Assembly (NCBI GenBank): GCA_023248635.1
Contig: JAHFED010000050.1
Coordinates: forward strand, 1 to 45,904
Reading direction: 5' to 3'
Source of the DNA: Myxococcales bacterium
GTDB lineage: Bacteria > Myxococcota > UBA727 > VGSZ01
Length of the DNA: 45,904 nt
This document shows positions 1 to 39,411 of this stretch, one piece after another. The stretch's first letter is position 1. Every line of letters starts with the position of its first letter. The notes beneath the pieces are model-generated. The model saw only the letters and a list, made by a program, of their open reading frames with translations. It was not told where the DNA came from and ran no database searches. Both the position numbers and the translations under genes were made by a program.

Positions 1-128
1 CGGTGGCGGGGCGGCGGCGAGATCCCAGCTTCCGCTGGGCGGCCGCGATGGTGGGGCCGGTGGCGGGGCGGCGGCGAGATCCCAGCTTCCGCTGGGCGGC
101 CGCGATGGTGGGGCCGGTGGCGGGGCGG
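1..128. repeat. 57-bp perfect tandem repeat inside the Pro-rich gene
   Basis: Positions 1-57 and 58-114 are identical and a third copy starts at 115 before diverging near 128. The period is a multiple of three and encodes a 19-residue repeat (Pro-rich linker plus SGSWDLAAA). More diverged copies of the SGxWDLA motif continue upstream in the gene to about 260. The array may extend beyond the window. Perfect identity of the outer copies suggests recent slippage or unequal exchange. Confidence 0.9.
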
Positions 129-1017
129 GGGCTGCGGCGAGGTCCCAGTCTCCGCTCGGCGGGGGCGGAGGTGCCACCGCGAGGTCCCAGCTTCCACCGG
201 GGGGGCCGGCCGCGAGGTTTCCGCTGGGAAGGGGCGGTGGCGCCGCTTCGAGGTCCCACGTGTGCGACGGGGAGGTTGAGGGTGCGTCAGCGCGGGCGCC
301 CCAGCTTGCGCTCGGTGGTGGCGCCGGCGGCGCGGCGGCGTGGTTCCAGATTCCGCTTCCGCTGGGCGGCGGTGGTGGGGGCGCGGCGGCGGCCTGCCAA
401 TTGGCGCTGGGCGGTCGCGGCGGCGGCGGTGCGGCCGAGTTTTCCCCGCTGGGAGGGCGATTTGCACCCGACGCCGTGGGAAGGGCAAGCGCTGCCGGCG
501 CGTCGGGCACGGCCCAACTGTCGCTGGGAGGTGGTTGGGCGGGAAAGCCCGGACCAAAGGCGGCGGGAAAGCCTTGAAAGGCGGGCGAGGGCTTCGACGG
601 CGTCGACGGAAATGCCGGCGCTCCGACAAAAGGCGGTGCGGCGGCGGCCAAAGCGGGGGAGCTGGGCGGCGGCGAGGTGAACTGGCTGGCGGGGGGCAGG
701 GTGAAGGTGGCCTCGGGCGGCGGGCCGTCTGTGGCAGGGGGGGCGGGTTCGGCAGAGGCCACCGAGGGGCCCAATCCCTCCCCGTCCATCTCGAGGTCGA
801 GGTTCACTTCTTCGTTCGGTGGGGCCGGGGGCGGCAAGCGGGCGGCCGTCGGGAAGGAAGAGGGCACAGAGATCTTGAACGCCGGCGCCGGCGTCGGCGG
901 CTTGGGCTCCGACGCTGCCACCGCCGCGACGTCGCCGGGGCTCCATTCGAAGCCGCACGCGAAACAGATCTTGCCATCAGCGACTCGACCACAATTGGGA
1001 CAACGCACCAGAGCCAT
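1..1017 (-). CDS. zinc-ribbon, proline-rich repeat protein (3' end beyond window)
   Basis: Reading from an ATG at 1017 on the minus strand, the frame stays open to the window edge (339 codons, incomplete at the C terminus). Residues 1-25 form a short zinc ribbon with Cys6, Cys9, Cys18 and Cys21 (CPNC then CFAC). The rest is low-complexity Pro/Ala/Ser with recurring Ser-Gly-Ser-Trp-Asp-Leu-Ala-Ala motifs; the last visible part is a perfect 19-residue tandem repeat. There is no signal peptide, so the protein is probably cytoplasmic or a soluble N-terminal scaffold. Zinc ribbon plus long Pro-rich linker is common in myxobacterial proteins that carry a further domain downstream, which cannot be seen here. 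It is divergent from bamA. A GGAGG lies about 13 bases upstream of the start, farther than ideal. Function unknown. Confidence 0.75.
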   Translation of the reverse strand, partial: MALVRCPNCGRVADGKICFACGFEWSPGDVAAVAASEPKPPTPAPAFKISVPSSFPTAARLPPPAPPNEEVNLDLEMDGEGLGPSVASAEPAPPATDGPPPEATFTLPPASQFTSPPPSSPALAAAAPPFVGAPAFPSTPSKPSPAFQGFPAAFGPGFPAQPPPSDSWAVPDAPAALALPTASGANRPPSGENSAAPPPPRPPSANWQAAAAPPPPPPSGSGIWNHAAAPPAPPPSASWGARADAPSTSPSHTWDLEAAPPPLPSGNLAAGPPGGSWDLAVAPPPPPSGDWDLAAAPAPPPAPPSRPPSGSWDLAAAPPPAPPSRPPSGSWDLAAAPPP

Positions 1018-1387
1018 GAGAGGAAACCGACCTCCGAACCCCGCGGGCGCCAGGGGCGACGACGGCACTACCGGTATCGCACGGGTACCCAGGAAACTGT
1101 ATTCACCGACAGCGCTTCGCGTGTCGGTGAATTCACCGACAGCGCTTCGCGTGTCGGTGAATTGTCTACAGGTTCATCGCCTGGCGGCGATGAATTGTCT
1201 ACAGGTTCATCGCTTGGCGGCGATGAACTCCCGCGTCATCCCGACCGGGCTCCCGGCAGGGTGGGCGGCGACGCTAGCGACGACGTCGACGTCCCCATGG
1301 GCCCCGGGTGAAGCGACCGGTCGGCTTCGCGACCACCGGGACAACAATGCGGTTGGCCTTTGCTGGGATCTTGCTAGCCATAGCGGA
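1018..1387. other. intergenic region upstream of bamA
   Basis: This 370-base gap lies between the divergent zinc-ribbon gene and bamA. Its only clear content is the block of palindromic repeats at 1101-1226, listed separately. Plus-strand frames stay open through it, but they read hairpin repeats and low-complexity Arg/Gly sequence, so I do not extend bamA upstream. No convincing promoter hexamers were recognised, although the divergent arrangement requires promoters here. Confidence 0.6.
1101..1226. repeat. composite palindromic repeat, arrangement A-A-B-B
   Basis: Two tandem A units (1101-1132 and 1131-1162, sharing two bases) have 11-base arms ATTCACCGACA and TGTCGGTGAAT around a CGC-TTC-GCG core. 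They are followed by two 33-base B units (1161-1193 and 1194-1226). Each B starts ATTGTCTACAGG and ends in a hairpin with arms TTCATCGCC and GGCGATGAA around TGGC. The second B unit has CGCT for CGCC, which still allows a G-U pair. The same A and B units recur in the same order and orientation at 33558-33620. This resembles a REP/REPIN-like element. Confidence 0.85.
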
Positions 1388-8811: not shown

Positions 8812-8835
8812 TTTGCGCCGTGCCCAACGGCTCAG
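8812..8835. repeat. degenerate member of the TGCCAA-loop hairpin family
   Basis: TTTGCGCCG, a TGCCCAA loop and CGGCTCAG form an imperfect hairpin. It overlaps the pspA stop codon, so the last codon of pspA is part of the right arm. The pattern matches the hairpins at 26018-26110, 32300-32321 and 38302-38412. Confidence 0.6.
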
Positions 8836-26017: not shown

Positions 26018-26110
26018 TTTGCGCCGTGCCAACGGCGCAAAGCAGGAAGTACTTTGCGCCGTGCCAGCGGCGCAAAGCAGGAAGCCCTTCGCGCCGTGCC
26101 AACGGCTCAA
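26018..26110. repeat. three tandem TGCCAA-loop hairpins, 35-bp period
   Basis: Copies at 26018-26041, 26053-26076 and 26088-26110 start exactly 35 bases apart. The first two have arms TTTGCGCCG and CGGCGCAAA with loops TGCCAA and TGCCAG. The third has TTCGCGCCG and CGGCTCAA. The spacer between copies is GCAGGAAGnnC. They fill the gap between the convergent GMC oxidoreductase and receiver genes and could also act as a bidirectional transcription barrier, though no U-tract follows. Confidence 0.88.
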
Positions 26111-26153
26111 GTGCCTAAAGACGCTCTTGAGATCCGGCGCTTGACCACCCTGC

Positions 26154-30542: not shown

Positions 30543-31816
30543 GCCGCGTCGTCGTCGTCTTTGGCCTGCTGCTGTCGACCATGCTGTCGACGCCATTGGC
30601 CGCGGCGTCGAGCCCGGAGGCGCGGCAGGTCTACAGCATCGTGTGGACGGTCCCCGTCGTCGAAACCGGGCCTTGCTTGCTCTCGGTGGTGTTGCCGCCC
30701 TCGGAGAAAGAGCGCTGCTCGAGCTGGACGCGCCGCGAAGCCGGTGGGGCGGCCTTTCACGACGGCCTCGGCGTCGTCGTCGTCGGCGGCTCTGATCAAC
30801 TGCTCCACGGGCTCGATGGGCGCGACGGTCACAAGCTGTGGGAGGTGCCGACGCCGGGTGCGGTGGTCGCCGAACCCACCCTCTTCGACGACGGCGCCTA
30901 CGTGGGCACCGACGACGCCCGCGTGCTGCGCTTCGATGTGACCTCAGGACGCAAGCGCTGGGAGACCCCCGTCGACGCCGAAGTCACCGAGCCCGTGGTC
31001 ATCGACGGCGACGTCATCTACGTCGTCACCGGCGCGGACTCGACCTACGCGCTCAACCGCCTCACGGGCGAAGCGCTGTGGGTGCAAAAGCACGCCCTGC
31101 CACGCGCCATCACCTTGCGCGGAGAAGCCAAGCCCCTCGTCGTCGACCTGCCCGCTGGCGAGGGCTTGCGCAGTGCTGACGTCCAGGCCGTTGGCACGGC
31201 CCAAAGGCGCCTCTACGTGGGCCATGCCGACGGCCGACTCTCAGTGCTCGACCGTGAGACCGGTGCGCCCCTGATGGACCTCAACCTCTCCCAGGACGAC
31301 TCCTTCGGCGACCTCGACGCCGACCCCATCCTGCACGTGCTGAAGGGTGGGGTCCGTCGCATCATCGTCGCCTCCCAAACGCGCGGCATCTTCGCCATCG
31401 ACCCGCGCACCAACGCCGAGGCCTGGCACCAAGACGAGCCCGGCATCGTGCGTCTGGCGGGGGGCGGCGAGGCCATGATCGTCGCTGCTGGCGCCGGCAA
31501 GGTGCTCGGCCTCGACGCGCACACCGGCGCCATCCGATGGCGTTTCACCTGGCCCAAGGGCGCTCCGACGCGCATCGTCGTCAAAGGGGGGCGCGTGCAC
31601 TTGGGCTCCGATCGCGGCGCCGTCTATGTGCTCAGCCTCTTTTCCGGGCGCCCCCTGCAGTATGCGGGGAGCGGTACGGGGACGGCGGCGGACCTGGCGC
31701 TGTGGCAAGACATGATGTTCGTGACGTCGACGGCCGGCAGCGTGACCGCCCTGAGCAACGCCTGGGTCGGCAGCATCCACGCCAAAAAGACGCTGCAAGA
31801 TCGCTTGCGCCGCTGA
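30539..31816 (+). CDS. BamB-like PQQ-type beta-propeller protein
   Basis: The 425-residue protein starts at GTG 30539 and has a signal peptide (SRVVVVFGLLLSTMLSTPLAAA) but no lipobox, unlike classical BamB. The body is repeated PQQ/YWTD-like propeller blades: DQLLHGLDGRDGHKLWEVP, ARVLRFDVTSGRKRWETP, STYALNRLTGEALWVQKH, GKVLGLDAHTGAIRWRF. Context (directly after a YfgM-like gene, in a genome segment with bamA) supports a BAM accessory role. A five-base stem with a TTGGCA loop at 31186-31202 inside the gene resembles the core of the intergenic hairpin family. Other PQQ-propeller functions cannot be excluded. Confidence 0.75.
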   Translation: MSRVVVVFGLLLSTMLSTPLAAASSPEARQVYSIVWTVPVVETGPCLLSVVLPPSEKERCSSWTRREAGGAAFHDGLGVVVVGGSDQLLHGLDGRDGHKLWEVPTPGAVVAEPTLFDDGAYVGTDDARVLRFDVTSGRKRWETPVDAEVTEPVVIDGDVIYVVTGADSTYALNRLTGEALWVQKHALPRAITLRGEAKPLVVDLPAGEGLRSADVQAVGTAQRRLYVGHADGRLSVLDRETGAPLMDLNLSQDDSFGDLDADPILHVLKGGVRRIIVASQTRGIFAIDPRTNAEAWHQDEPGIVRLAGGGEAMIVAAGAGKVLGLDAHTGAIRWRFTWPKGAPTRIVVKGGRVHLGSDRGAVYVLSLFSGRPLQYAGSGTGTAADLALWQDMMFVTSTAGSVTALSNAWVGSIHAKKTLQDRLRR

Positions 31817-32234: not shown

Positions 32235-32299
32235 TCACCGATCTCTTCGCCGATTCATGACTGTAGAAATGAGTGGCCACGGCGGAACGCCGCTGCGCG

Positions 32300-32321
32300 T
32301 TGCGCCATGCTAACGGCGCAA
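32300..32321. repeat. single TGCCAA-family hairpin
   Basis: TTGCGCC and GGCGCAA are perfect 7-base arms around ATGCTAAC. The loop corresponds to the family core GTGCCAAC with three changes, so the innermost G-C pair is lost. It lies in the 228-base gap between the Nudix gene and the first lipoprotein gene; nothing else recognisable is in that gap. Confidence 0.7.
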
Positions 32322-32462
32322 GAAACCATCGGCACTTCTCGGGGCCTGTCGGCGACGGCCGCGTGCTGATCCCTGGTGGCCGTTGCGTCGGGCATTTGTG
32401 CTATGAGCGGCACGTCTCTGCCAACCGTGCCTTCTTTCCATCTATCCCAGATCGGTACAGCC

Positions 32463-33036: not shown

Positions 33037-33558
33037 ATGAACATCCTCAAGTTGTCGGCCCAGGCCGCGCTCGCTCTCCTCGTCCTCACGGGCTGCACCA
33101 TCACCAGCAAGGTGTCGTCCATTCCGATCATGGACGTGACCACCAAGCTTCGCCGCGCCGATTACGTCGTCCTGGGCACCGCCACGGGCCAGGCCTGCGC
33201 GGAAGAGAACTGCTTCCTCGGAAGCTGCTCCAAGAAGGCTGGTACTCCCGGCGACGAGCTCCTCTCCGTCGACAACGGCGGCGCGGCGAGCTCCCCCGCC
33301 CCCCTCGCCTTCCTCGCCTTCCTCCTGGGCACCCCACCGGCGGCCGGGCCGAGCCGCTCGCAGATCGCCGAGGAGATCGCGATGTTCAAGGCCATCGAGT
33401 CCGTGCCGACGGCCGATGCAATCTTGAGCCCGCGCTACGAGAGCGACACCACCGAAGACGGCTTCCCCTTCCTCACCCACAACGTGAAGTCCTGCGTCAC
33501 GGTGAAGGGCAAGGCCATCCACGTGAACTCCGACGCCGAGATGGGCGCTGCACGGTAA
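33037..33558 (+). CDS. lipoprotein, second of a tandem paralogous pair
   Basis: The 173-residue product starts at ATG 33037 with AGGAA upstream and a lipobox LTGC. It shares with its upstream neighbour the YVVLGTAxG-C-C-LG-C core and the terminal KSCVTVKGKAIHVNSDAEMG segment, so the two arose by tandem duplication and have diverged strongly in the middle. It lacks the Ala/Pro tail of its paralogue. The last base of its TAA stop is the first base of the A-type palindromic repeat that follows. Confidence 0.82.
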   Translation: MNILKLSAQAALALLVLTGCTITSKVSSIPIMDVTTKLRRADYVVLGTATGQACAEENCFLGSCSKKAGTPGDELLSVDNGGAASSPAPLAFLAFLLGTPPAAGPSRSQIAEEIAMFKAIESVPTADAILSPRYESDTTEDGFPFLTHNVKSCVTVKGKAIHVNSDAEMGAAR

Positions 33559-33620
33559 TTCACCGGCAGCGCTTCGCGTGTCGGTGAATTGTCTACAGGT
33601 TCATCGCCTGGCGGCGATGA
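33558..33620. repeat. composite palindromic repeat, arrangement A-B
   Basis: An A unit (33558-33589) differs from those at 1101 by one base in the left arm (ACCGGCA for ACCGACA), leaving a G-U pair. A B unit (33588-33620) is identical to the first B unit at 1161-1193. Two further small inverted repeats follow: GCCC-TGC-GGGC and CGAGG-TTCAG-CCTCG. The element begins on the stop codon of the second lipoprotein gene and sits before the convergent kinase gene. Confidence 0.85.
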
Positions 33621-33747
33621 TTTGCCCTGCGGGCGGCGAGGTTCAGCCTCGTCGCTCGCGATATCGGGGGCCCCACGACGCCGCCGACGGCTCCGGCCTG
33701 CGCTTGCAGCCAGCTCAGCCGGACAAGGAAACTGGCGCGTCGTGAAG

Positions 33748-34401: not shown

Positions 34402-35565
34402 TTATTGTTCCAGACGCTGGCGCGCCTGAAAGCGAGTCATCATATCTAAGAAGCGATCGAAATGGATGTCGGCATCGTGTGGACCGGGAGCTGCCTCGGG
34501 GTGATACTGCACAGAGAAGGCCCACTTCGACGTCGCATCCAGGCCTTCGTTGGTCCCGTCACTGACATTGGTCTCATTGGCGCGCGCAAGCGGCGAGAGC
34601 TCGCTGGTCTGCACGCAGAAGCCGTGGTTTTGCGAGGTGATCAGCACGCGGGAGGCGACGCCGGCGACGACGTCGGTGGACACCGGTTGATTGCCGCCGC
34701 GGTGCCCGTACGCCGTCTTGAAGGTCGAAGCGCCCAGGGCCTGCCCGAGGATCTGGTGGCCCATGCAGATGCCGAACACCGGCACGGTGCCGAGCAGAGA
34801 GCGGACGACGTCGACGACGTGGGGCAGGGTGGAGGGATCGCCGGGTCCGTTGCTGAGCAGCACGCCATCGGGGGCGAGGGCACGCACCTGCTGCGCCGTC
34901 GTCGACGCGGGCACCACGGTCACCCTGCAACCGCGGTGCACCAGCATGCGGGCCATGTTCTTCTTCATGCCGAAGTCGAAGGCGACGACATGGTGCTTCT
35001 GCGGCTGGGCGCTCAGGGGCAGGCCGGCGTCGTCGACGAGGCCTTCGCTGAAGGCATAGGGCGCTTGGCAGGTGACCTCAGAGACCAGCTCGCGGCCGGC
35101 CATGGGGGGGGCGTTGGCTGCGCGTCGGCGCAGCTCGTTCAGCGGCGTGCCGTCGGTGGAGAGCAGGCCAGTCTTGGTGCCGCCTTCGCGCAGCCGTCGG
35201 ACCAGCGCGCGGGTGTCGATGCCTTCGATGCCGGGCACGTTCGCGCTCAGCAGCCACGACGACAAATCCCGGTCGCTGCGCCAGTTCGACACCAGCGCCG
35301 CTCGACGGCGAACGATGAGGCCCGCGGCCTGGATGCCGGCGGATTCGAAGTCGCGGTCGCAGACGCCGTAGTTGCCGACTTCGGGCACCGTGAGCGTGAG
35401 CAACTGACAGCGGTAGGACGGGTCGGTGAGCAGCTCGGGATAGCCGCTCATCGAGGTGTTGAAGACCACCTCACCTTCCGTCGTCGTCGTTGCTCCAAAG
35501 GGGGCGCCAGAAAACGCGGTGCCGTCGGCCAAGACCAACCAGGCGCCTGCAGAGCGCTCGTTCAT
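34402..35565 (-). CDS. carA: carbamoyl-phosphate synthase small (glutaminase) subunit
   Basis: This subunit hydrolyses glutamine and passes ammonia to CarB for carbamoyl phosphate, the entry to pyrimidine and arginine synthesis. The 387-residue protein has the CarA N-terminal domain (VFNTSMSGYPELLTDPSY) and a class I glutaminase domain with catalytic C267 in GICMGHQILGQALGA and the terminal HPEAAPGPHD. It overlaps the pyrC-like gene by four bases (ATGA). carB is not in this window. Confidence 0.97.
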   Translation of the reverse strand: MNERSAGAWLVLADGTAFSGAPFGATTTTEGEVVFNTSMSGYPELLTDPSYRCQLLTLTVPEVGNYGVCDRDFESAGIQAAGLIVRRRAALVSNWRSDRDLSSWLLSANVPGIEGIDTRALVRRLREGGTKTGLLSTDGTPLNELRRRAANAPPMAGRELVSEVTCQAPYAFSEGLVDDAGLPLSAQPQKHHVVAFDFGMKKNMARMLVHRGCRVTVVPASTTAQQVRALAPDGVLLSNGPGDPSTLPHVVDVVRSLLGTVPVFGICMGHQILGQALGASTFKTAYGHRGGNQPVSTDVVAGVASRVLITSQNHGFCVQTSELSPLARANETNVSDGTNEGLDATSKWAFSVQYHPEAAPGPHDADIHFDRFLDMMTRFQARQRLEQ

Positions 35566-38287: not shown

Positions 38288-38412
38288 CCGTGCCGATGGC
38301 ACGGCTCAAAGTGCCGATGGTTTGAGCCGTTGGCACGGCTCAAAAGTGCTGATGGTTCAAGCCGTCGGCACGGCTCTCGTGCCGACGGTTTGTGCCGTTG
38401 GCACGGCACAAA
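38288..38412. repeat. tandem TTGGCA-loop hairpins with alternative pairings
   Basis: Three imperfect units of 34, 35 and 33 bases (38302-38335, 38336-38370, 38371-38403) plus a final half unit contain two perfect 9-bp hairpins. At 38321-38344 the arms are TTTGAGCCG and CGGCTCAAA; at 38389-38412 they are TTTGTGCCG and CGGCACAAA; both have loop TTGGCA. The arm at 38321-38329 can also pair with an upstream CGGCTCAAA at 38302-38310. A 7-bp stem with a GAT loop lies at 38288-38304. The block fills the gap between divergent pyrR and the plus-strand operon. Confidence 0.88.
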
Positions 38413-38424
38413 CGAGGTTGCTGC

Positions 38425-39411
38425 GTGAAGAATCTTCTCGCCTTTGTCCTTGCCCTCCTCGCCATCGTCGGCGGCGCCCTGGTCATGGTCTTTCAACAAA
38501 AAGACCGCGCCGATCAGTACGACCTCGAGCGCGAGCTGGTCACCATCCAACGAGACACCGCCCGGCAGATCGCTCTCATCGCCCACTCGCCGGAGGCCAC
38601 CATCGCCTACGACCGCCAACAGGTGGTGCGCAAACACGTCGAGGCCATCGACGCCCTGCGCAAGCGCTATCCCGAAGCGATGCAAGACGACGCCTTCATC
38701 AATCGCATGGAAGAAAAAGCGAAGGAGGGCGCAAAAGACAAGGCGAAGACGGCGGAGTACCGCGCGCGCTATGACTATGTGAAAGAGATGTGGGCGAACT
38801 ATCTCAAGGATTCCAAGTTCAAGCCCGTGTTCGCCGCCGAGGAGCACGGCGTGCGCTTCGAGGTCGTCTCGATCAAGAAGTCCAACGACGGCGGCAACGA
38901 AGGCTTGCGCTGGGACGTGCTCATCTATGGCGCGCCTCCCAAGGATCAGCTGTCGTTCAACAACTTCCATCTCGACACATGGGTCGAGTTCGCCGACAAA
39001 GAAACGAGTGGCAAAAGGAAGGGCCAACCCAAGCGGGCCGCCTATAAGGCCGATCTGCAACCCTTCTTGCCTTATGTGTTGGTCGATAAGCCCTGGGAGT
39101 GGCTGCCCGAATGGCCCGCCGGCGTCATGGTCGGCTACTACGTCGGCATTCCGCTGTGGGACTCGCGCGCCAAGCGCACCGACATGTCCCTCGAAGGCGG
39201 CATGCGCACCATGGGCGGCACCATCATCCCCATCAGCATGAAGTGGAAACGCACCACCATCGAGGAGAGCTGGAAGGGCACCCCAGGCGGCAAGTGGGAC
39301 GACGCCAACATGGTCCCCCTCTCCGACGACGATCTGAAGGAGCAAGGGGTGACGCTGCCCGAAGAAGAAGACGCCGCCGACGCCGCTGCCGCCGCCAAGA
39401 AGGACAAATAG
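38425..39411 (+). CDS. single-pass membrane protein with coiled coil, function unknown
   Basis: The 328-residue protein starts at GTG 38425 with GAGG eight bases upstream. One membrane span (LLAFVLALLAIVGGALVMVF, about 4-23) is followed by a charged helical region (QYDLERELVTIQRD... to about 125) and a probable globular domain with many Trp and Tyr (PWEWLPEWPAGVMVGYYVGIPLWD). The C terminus is acidic and Ala-rich. It leads a five-gene plus-strand operon with the phosphatidyltransferase. I do not recognise the family. Confidence 0.78.
   Translation: MKNLLAFVLALLAIVGGALVMVFQQKDRADQYDLERELVTIQRDTARQIALIAHSPEATIAYDRQQVVRKHVEAIDALRKRYPEAMQDDAFINRMEEKAKEGAKDKAKTAEYRARYDYVKEMWANYLKDSKFKPVFAAEEHGVRFEVVSIKKSNDGGNEGLRWDVLIYGAPPKDQLSFNNFHLDTWVEFADKETSGKRKGQPKRAAYKADLQPFLPYVLVDKPWEWLPEWPAGVMVGYYVGIPLWDSRAKRTDMSLEGGMRTMGGTIIPISMKWKRTTIEESWKGTPGGKWDDANMVPLSDDDLKEQGVTLPEEEDAADAAAAAKKDK

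Follow-up and report, generated by a model that had tools for sequence, protein, structure and literature searches.

Hairpin units in the window

The window, by which we mean the whole stretch of 45,904 nucleotides analysed here (contig C86 of a myxobacterial genome of 6.53 Mb in 135 contigs, 96.7% complete), carries short hairpin units among genes called with a home-made codon model. The unit consists of a linker of 9-11 nt, usually with GATG or CCTGC at its 5' foot, and a 10-bp hairpin with a TGGC loop, 33-35 nt in total. The TGGC loop is common to three stem families, F1 (TTTG(C/A)GCCGT), F2 (GTTCATCGCC) and F3 (TTCAAGACGC), the borders between which were set by us, and the usual partner of F2 is F4, a bulged hairpin (CACCGACAGCGCTTCGCGTGTCGGTGAATT).

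The first-pass annotation had described arms of the form TTTGNGCCG/CGGCNCAAA around a loop TTGGCA. Indeed, these arms are present at 26018-26041, 38321-38344 and 38389-38412, with C-G, A-T and T-A, respectively, at the variable stem position, and the 33-35 base spacing was found in both tandem places. While the copies at 26018, 38321 and 38389 stand as described, degeneration is seen in those at 8812 and 32300 and in parts of both arrays, and the statement that the arms are always complementary is wrong, as mismatched arms occur at 26088-26111, 38356-38376 and 8812 and the copy near 32300 is degenerate. Moreover, the loop is the tetraloop TGGC rather than TTGGCA, on a stem of 10 bp, closed by T-A in F1 and by C-G in F2 and F3. 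Taken alone, the word TTGGCA shows no enrichment in the window (19 vs 17.3) and was rejected as a repeat, the unit being the whole hairpin; GCCGTTGGCACGGC at up to three mismatches was found 46 times in the window vs 17.4 +/- 4.5 in shuffles. Members beyond the earlier list are also present, namely F2/F4, F3 and an in-gene F1-like copy (CM, covariance model score):

1104..1163, + strand: two F4 units, CACCGACAGCGCTTCGCGTGTCGGTGAATT, hairpin with a one-base bulge (fold computed)
1164..1229, + strand: two F2 units, GTCTACAG + GTTCATCGCC-TGGC-GGCGATGAA(TT); in the second the closing base is changed and the end is GAAC
8812: copy with mismatched arms TTTGCGCCG/CGGCTCAGC, loop TGCCCAA
23780..23812, + strand: single F3 unit, GTGCTGATG + TTCCAGCCGC-TGGC-GCGTCTTGAA (CM 45.2 bits), at the 5' end of a predicted enoyl-CoA hydratase gene (minus strand; start maybe misplaced)
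26018..26041, - strand: F1 hairpin TTTGCGCCGT-TGGC-ACGGCGCAAA, last of a three-unit array, linker GTACTTCCTGC at 26042-26052
26053..26076, - strand: F1 hairpin, middle unit, closing pair mismatched, linker GGGCTTCCTGC at 26077-26087
26088..26111, - strand: F1 hairpin, first unit, mismatched arms TTGAGCCG/CGGCGCGAA (TTCGCGCCG/CGGCTCAAG)
31173..31205, + strand: degenerate F1-like unit, 33 nt, in frame (CM 27.5 bits), inside a BamB-like beta-propeller gene (peptide SADVQAVGTAQ region)
32299..32335, - strand: degenerate F1 unit, previously noted as the 32300 copy (CM 11.5 bits, E 0.11)
33557..33623, + strand: F4+F2 composite with AATT at its bounds
about 34406..34431, + strand: degenerate F3 unit (CM 24.2 bits), at the stop-codon end of the predicted gene 34402-35565 (minus strand)
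38290..38310, + strand: F1 unit A, truncated, linker GTGCCGATGG then directly the right-arm remnant CACGGCTCAAA (from sequence)
38311..38344, + strand: F1 unit B, linker GTGCCGATGG + perfect hairpin TTTGAGCCGT-TGGC-ACGGCTCAAA at 38321-38344 (CM 40.2 bits)
38346..38376, + strand: F1 unit C, degenerate, linker GTGCTGATGG + TTCAAGCCGTCGGCACGGCTC, basal arm complementarity lost (from sequence and CM)
38379..38412, + strand: F1 unit D, linker GTGCCGACGG + perfect hairpin TTTGTGCCGT-TGGC-ACGGCACAAA at 38389-38412

The array at 26018 lies directly after the stop codon of a GMC oxidoreductase gene, between convergent genes, and unit D ends 12 bp before a predicted gene start at 38425. As DNA, unit B (38311..38344) folds with -10.6 kcal/mol (z -5.3). 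In an Rfam scan of the window only a tRNA reaches the gathering threshold, and the hairpins match no curated family. At the AATT edge of the F4/F2 element (33556-33560) the predicted gene 33037-33558 owes the end of its TAA stop to the leading AA. The contig start (window 1-430) is an imperfect 57-bp tandem repeat, with two identical copies at 1-114.

Copy number, arrays and relatives

The hairpins are real and far from chance. Where the first-pass annotation had set mobility against the alternative of few genomic copies, 280 exact cores (GCCGTTGGCACGGC) were found genome-wide and none of the reversed-pattern control; with up to two mismatches, F3 has 398 and F2 246 genome-wide matches, with 0 for the controls. 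When hairpins with a 4-nt loop and a perfect stem of 8 bp or longer were counted in 838 kb of this genome, TGGC (or GCCA) was the loop in 132 of them and the next most frequent loop occurred in 6; no TGGC peak was seen in samples of G002 (160 kb) or G003 (120 kb). A covariance model of 33 positions recovered at least 153 units here and 28 in G001; G002 and G003 gave none, and each of the other genomes gave 0-2 weak matches.

Neighbouring units are predominantly direct (112 vs 8 inverted), congruent with an inserted unit whose end recreates the target and hence with head-to-tail arrays. The arrays may be homogeneous with an exact period (L089 17387-17693), and mixed F1/F3 arrays occur; as arrays in this metagenome-assembled genome (MAG) include assembly gaps, the unit counts of long ones are approximate. 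Unique spacers of the CRISPR type were not found, the linkers being constant within a family. Tabulation of array location, as the first-pass annotation had proposed, gave a mostly intergenic placement (76 of 93 arrays; 12 lie on the edge of a predicted gene and 5 well inside genes) and no strong bias to convergent gaps (17 of the 76 intergenic arrays vs 56 of 383 gaps). The orientation of flanking genes is near background, and at the array level no terminator-like location bias was seen.

This genome's F1 and F3 sequences were found in neither G001 nor G002, both congeners, nor in G003 of the same family; despite this, G001 has homologous units. Thus the relatives, which had likewise been proposed for checking, gave homologous units in G001 and none in G002 and G003. 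The nearest named relative is a congeneric MAG, 'uncultured Myxococcales bacterium isolate Loc090402-4m_bin-0916', which places the host among the uncultured myxobacteria. The F1 pattern had 0 matches in genome_contigs, and the G001-type pattern matched only the G001 MAG plus two singletons in Halothiobacillus and Dokdonella, which we judged to be chance since their stems are imperfect and form no array. A looser tandem pattern gave, in 58 genomes, few scattered matches per genome outside this one, without arrays, and viral spread found no support in IMG/VR, where F1 and F3 did not occur.

Insertion sites and stem variation

The joined-flank BLAST of all arrays was swamped by self-matches, and it was a recurrent flank that revealed a dispersed repeat of ~165 bp (..CCCAAGTCCAGTTGAAGTTCGCTCAGGCGCG..), the 12 scored copies of which form an occupancy ladder at one TTGAA. 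Seven of the 12 are empty (CCAGTTGAA joined to GTTCGCTC), three hold exactly one 33-bp F3 unit between CCAGTTGAA and GTTCGCTC, one holds five units (165 bp), and one has a linker scar (CCAGTTGAA, then GTTTGGATG, then TTCGCTC); an additional filled copy, with several units, is cut off by the end of its contig. The ladder shows a discrete insertion whose end recreates its target. The 33-bp step could equally well be a 28-bp element flanked by a 5-bp duplication of TTGAA, and the filled copies may share descent from one filled copy rather than stem from independent insertions. The repeat itself (R6; L066, L071, L081, L093, L283, L285, L287, L288) has hairpins of its own, e.g. GGAGGGTCTGCATCAGACCCTCC, and some of its copies host F3 units.

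Other insertions are found beyond this repeat. Six F1 units sit cleanly within an F2/F4 junction (GGCGATGAA, then ..CAAA, then TTCACCGACAG). The gap before a ribosomal-protein gene starting MLNKQTYGVIVRP (L23-like by eye) measures ~180 bp and holds an F1 unit here, vs 55-58 bp and no F1 unit in G001 and G002, and a nearby gap holds an F3' array in G001 and none in this genome. A short AATT-bounded repeat, GGCCGCCCGGCCTGAGGGCAGAGAATT, adjoins F2/F4 units (L092, L065, L075, others) and ends in GAATT too.

The boundaries are sharp. In 26 F3 first units TTGAA precedes the linker at 1.15-1.38 bits per position, with mostly 0.05-0.45 bits upstream (up to 0.43 beside the motif) and a TTGAA background of 0.0012 per position and strand. 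The right arm of F3 also terminates in TTGAA, beyond which the sequence is variable. A second, separately fetched set of 28 F3 first units had TGAA at -4 to -1 in 24, 25, 24 and 19 of 28, T at -5 in 15 of 28, and at most 0.23 bits upstream. A fixed short target in the style of IS200/IS605 was thus found as WTGAA for F3 in two samples, and in weaker form (AA) for F1; F1 and the F3' of G001 show an AA preference only, while F2 is bounded by TGAATT on both sides and F4 by AATT. A left ATGAA with a right TTGAA in the F3 sample makes a full 5-bp duplication less likely. In a few copies the final bases of the right end and of the left flank co-vary (3/5 vs 1/49, Fisher p 0.0016, from hand-picked counts), a coupling that is not explained by simple fixed-end insertion. 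At L055 8362, L089 11211 and L274 the right end is TTGAT rather than TTGAA, and the left flank tends to end in T.

Comparison with G001 reveals that the stems are replaced yet complementary, with loop and linkers (TTCTGATG and TTGTCTACA, common to both genomes) unchanged. The F3-like unit of G001 is CTTCTTCGGC-TGGC-GCCGAAGAAG with linker TTCTGATG, likewise tandem, and its F2 forms are TTCATCGGC/GCCGATGAA, which sits behind the same F4-like leader and TTGTCTACA linker, and TTCATCACC/GGTGATGAA. When 23 F1/F3 variants from the two species are aligned, pairing holds in 93.9% of cells, both sides have changed in 58 cells (17 in shuffles), and the covariation score is 0.696 vs 0.217 shuffled and 0.08-0.25 for slid structures (maximum 0.254). 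Both-sided change affects 8 of 10 stem pairs, while pair 2 (T-A), pair 9 (G-C), the GATG foot and the loop are invariant, the latter two being fixed by the selection criteria of the variant set.

Thus, the covariation claimed by the first-pass annotation holds between families and species and fails within families, where one-sided changes far outnumber compensated ones: F3 has 28 left-only and 57 right-only changes vs 4 compensated, where independence would give 1.2. As single copies for the most part decay uncompensated, pairing matters for propagation and not for a local function of resident copies, and there is no sign of the proposed selection on each folded copy (85 vs 4 in F3). Covariation between families together with decay within them is what a mobile population with successive masters would show.

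Mobility, known systems and candidate enzymes

REP-like repeats are common, and their movement is rarely seen directly. The hairpins described here are probably miniature non-autonomous mobile elements of the REP kind, which insert 3' of a target matching their own last bases. The mobility suggested in the first-pass annotation is supported by ~900+ units genome-wide, by presence and absence between congeners, and by empty and filled copies of one host sequence. A unit would insert 3' of a short target equal to its own last bases, WTGAA for F3, AA for F1 and GAATT for F2/F4, and as the inserted unit would end in the target, the next could insert behind it, yielding a head-to-tail array with an exact period that recombination and slippage may then lengthen, shorten and homogenise. 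The enzyme, we infer, would fold a single strand and recognise it by its 5' linker, its loop and the fixed pairs 2 (T-A) and 9 (G-C), while the remaining stem pairs would drift as complementary pairs in copies still propagating, and copies no longer moving would decay. Single-strand chemistry of the HUH/Y1-like kind and mobilisation in trans are presumed.

Array growth could also proceed by slippage between TTGAA repeats without a transposase. Extended to the whole population, such an account has duplication building the arrays, quasi-palindrome correction keeping the arms and ectopic recombination spreading them, and it would fit the homogeneous exact-period array at L089, the mixed F1/F3 arrays, the scar at L287, which resembles hairpin loss between TTC repeats, and the failure to find a transposase. 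We nevertheless regard it as unlikely, for some additional process would have to deliver single 33-bp units 3' of WTGAA to tens of unrelated sites, where the sequence is random right up to the boundary, and most single-arm changes stay uncorrected. Hairpins that act in the transcript of each copy (termination, 3'-end stabilisation or regulation), with selection keeping the fold, would be congruent with the mostly intergenic placement, the stable folds, and window arrays that directly follow a stop codon (26018) or closely precede a gene start (38412); the copies however decay without compensation, lack a T-tract and a strong enrichment in convergent gaps, include an F1 unit in a ribosomal-protein gap that is empty in two congeners, and have sharp insertion boundaries and empty sites that are unexpected of conserved regulators, rendering this improbable. 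BIMEs bind gyrase, IHF or Pol I, and protein-binding sites for chromosome organisation under host selection would suit the high copy number, dispersed intergenic placement and conserved loop, linker and two pairs, but the lack of such units in G002 and G003 and the wholesale stem turnover between congeners leave very little likelihood for it, though a later-acquired protein-binding role could exist alongside mobility.

Among known systems, the mobile elements proposed here resemble the GTAG REPs and REPINs mobilised by RAYT, which are also palindromes of 20-40 nt with hundreds of mostly intergenic copies, in several families per genome and confined to one or few species; the hairpins indeed are high-copy extragenic palindromes within that size range. 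GTAG REP stems drift while the palindromes persist (PMC2817692), and TnpAREP reads a 5' tag and the loop rather than the whole stem (PMC8266576). Unlike GTAG REPs, F1 and F3 have GATG(G) or CCTGC and no GTAG at the foot, no RAYT was found here and hence none flanked by hairpins, and the WTGAA target/end identity is sharp. The F2/F4 linker GTCTACAG reads CTGTAGAC on the other strand, with GTAG two bases before the AATT-extended stem of F4, also in G001. BIMEs and REPINs are inverted palindrome pairs, whereas the arrays here are direct. The SMAG repeats of Stenotrophomonas maltophilia are GC-rich palindromes, tandem at some loci (PMC2613905), but their arrays have 50-103 bp units with variable flanking DNA and carry GTAG, whereas the unit here is exactly linker plus hairpin.

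The CGTC REPs, including Neisseria dRS3 and Rickettsia RPE-4/6, have stems of 8-9 bp, loops of 4-5 nt and high copy numbers, with no dedicated transposase known (PMC3733652). They differ in being mainly HH dimers rather than direct tandem arrays, and the linkers inspected here had no CGTC (TGTC/CCTC) terminus and the loop is mostly TGGC. ISDra2 (IS200/IS605) inserts 3' of TTGAT via single-strand DNA (PMC2806898), and the likeness to ISDra2 and IS608 extends to insertion 3' of a 4-5 nt target, an end-adjacent hairpin and perhaps the lack of a target duplication; unlike these, the units have one hairpin rather than left- and right-end hairpins, measure 33 nt, and no TnpA/TnpB was found. The hairpins are thus probably a variant of REP-like mobile DNA, REP/IS200-IS605-like in style, whose mobiliser was not found. 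That they form a class outside both GTAG/RAYT and CGTC, moved by an enzyme unrelated to HUH/Y1, with the target encoded in the hairpin base and a stem freely swappable between species, is a tentative and rather doubtful proposal; if true, every insertion would regenerate its own target.

In this genome, sites that are empty, singly filled and multiply filled form a natural ladder with base-pair precision, and a simple rule, that the end of the unit is its target, predicts array growth. A congener with kept linker and loop but replaced stem tells the features that the moving enzyme reads apart from those it disregards, and the apparent lack of a RAYT makes that enzyme a searchable question. The RAYT-type transposase that the first-pass annotation had suggested looking for did not emerge: neither Y1_Tnp (PF01797) nor TnpB (PF07282) has a match in the 96.7%-complete genome, and the only PF01797-like protein, at C9:359471-360406, carries a Bac_DnaA_C domain and has ELRL/EVRL/EIRL in place of HUH and no tyrosine, as in all aligned orthologs. 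As mobiliser, this DnaA-C-containing RAYT relative was rejected, lacking HUH and Tyr and being present in hairpin-free genomes. One F2 unit lies just 3' of its gene, a neighbour that a substantial fraction of genes have. TnpAREP proteins of subclass 2.1 with DnaA-C-like C-termini have been described (PMC6006769). The protein of ~312 aa (L204; orthologs L203, L205-L214), with a RAYT/Y1-like N-terminal part devoid of HUH/Tyr and a DnaA domain-IV-like C-terminus, is found in most searched genomes of the order, usually as a single copy, and is apparently an exapted transposase.

A reverse transcriptase (RT) as copier was likewise rejected, a retron-like RT being present here, none found in hairpin-bearing G001, and RTs present in hairpin-free G002 and G003. 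The RT ORF in this genome (C11:75544-76155, L253; ~490 aa, with YADDL and VTG motifs, retron-like by eye) lies ~6 kb from an 18-unit F1 array.
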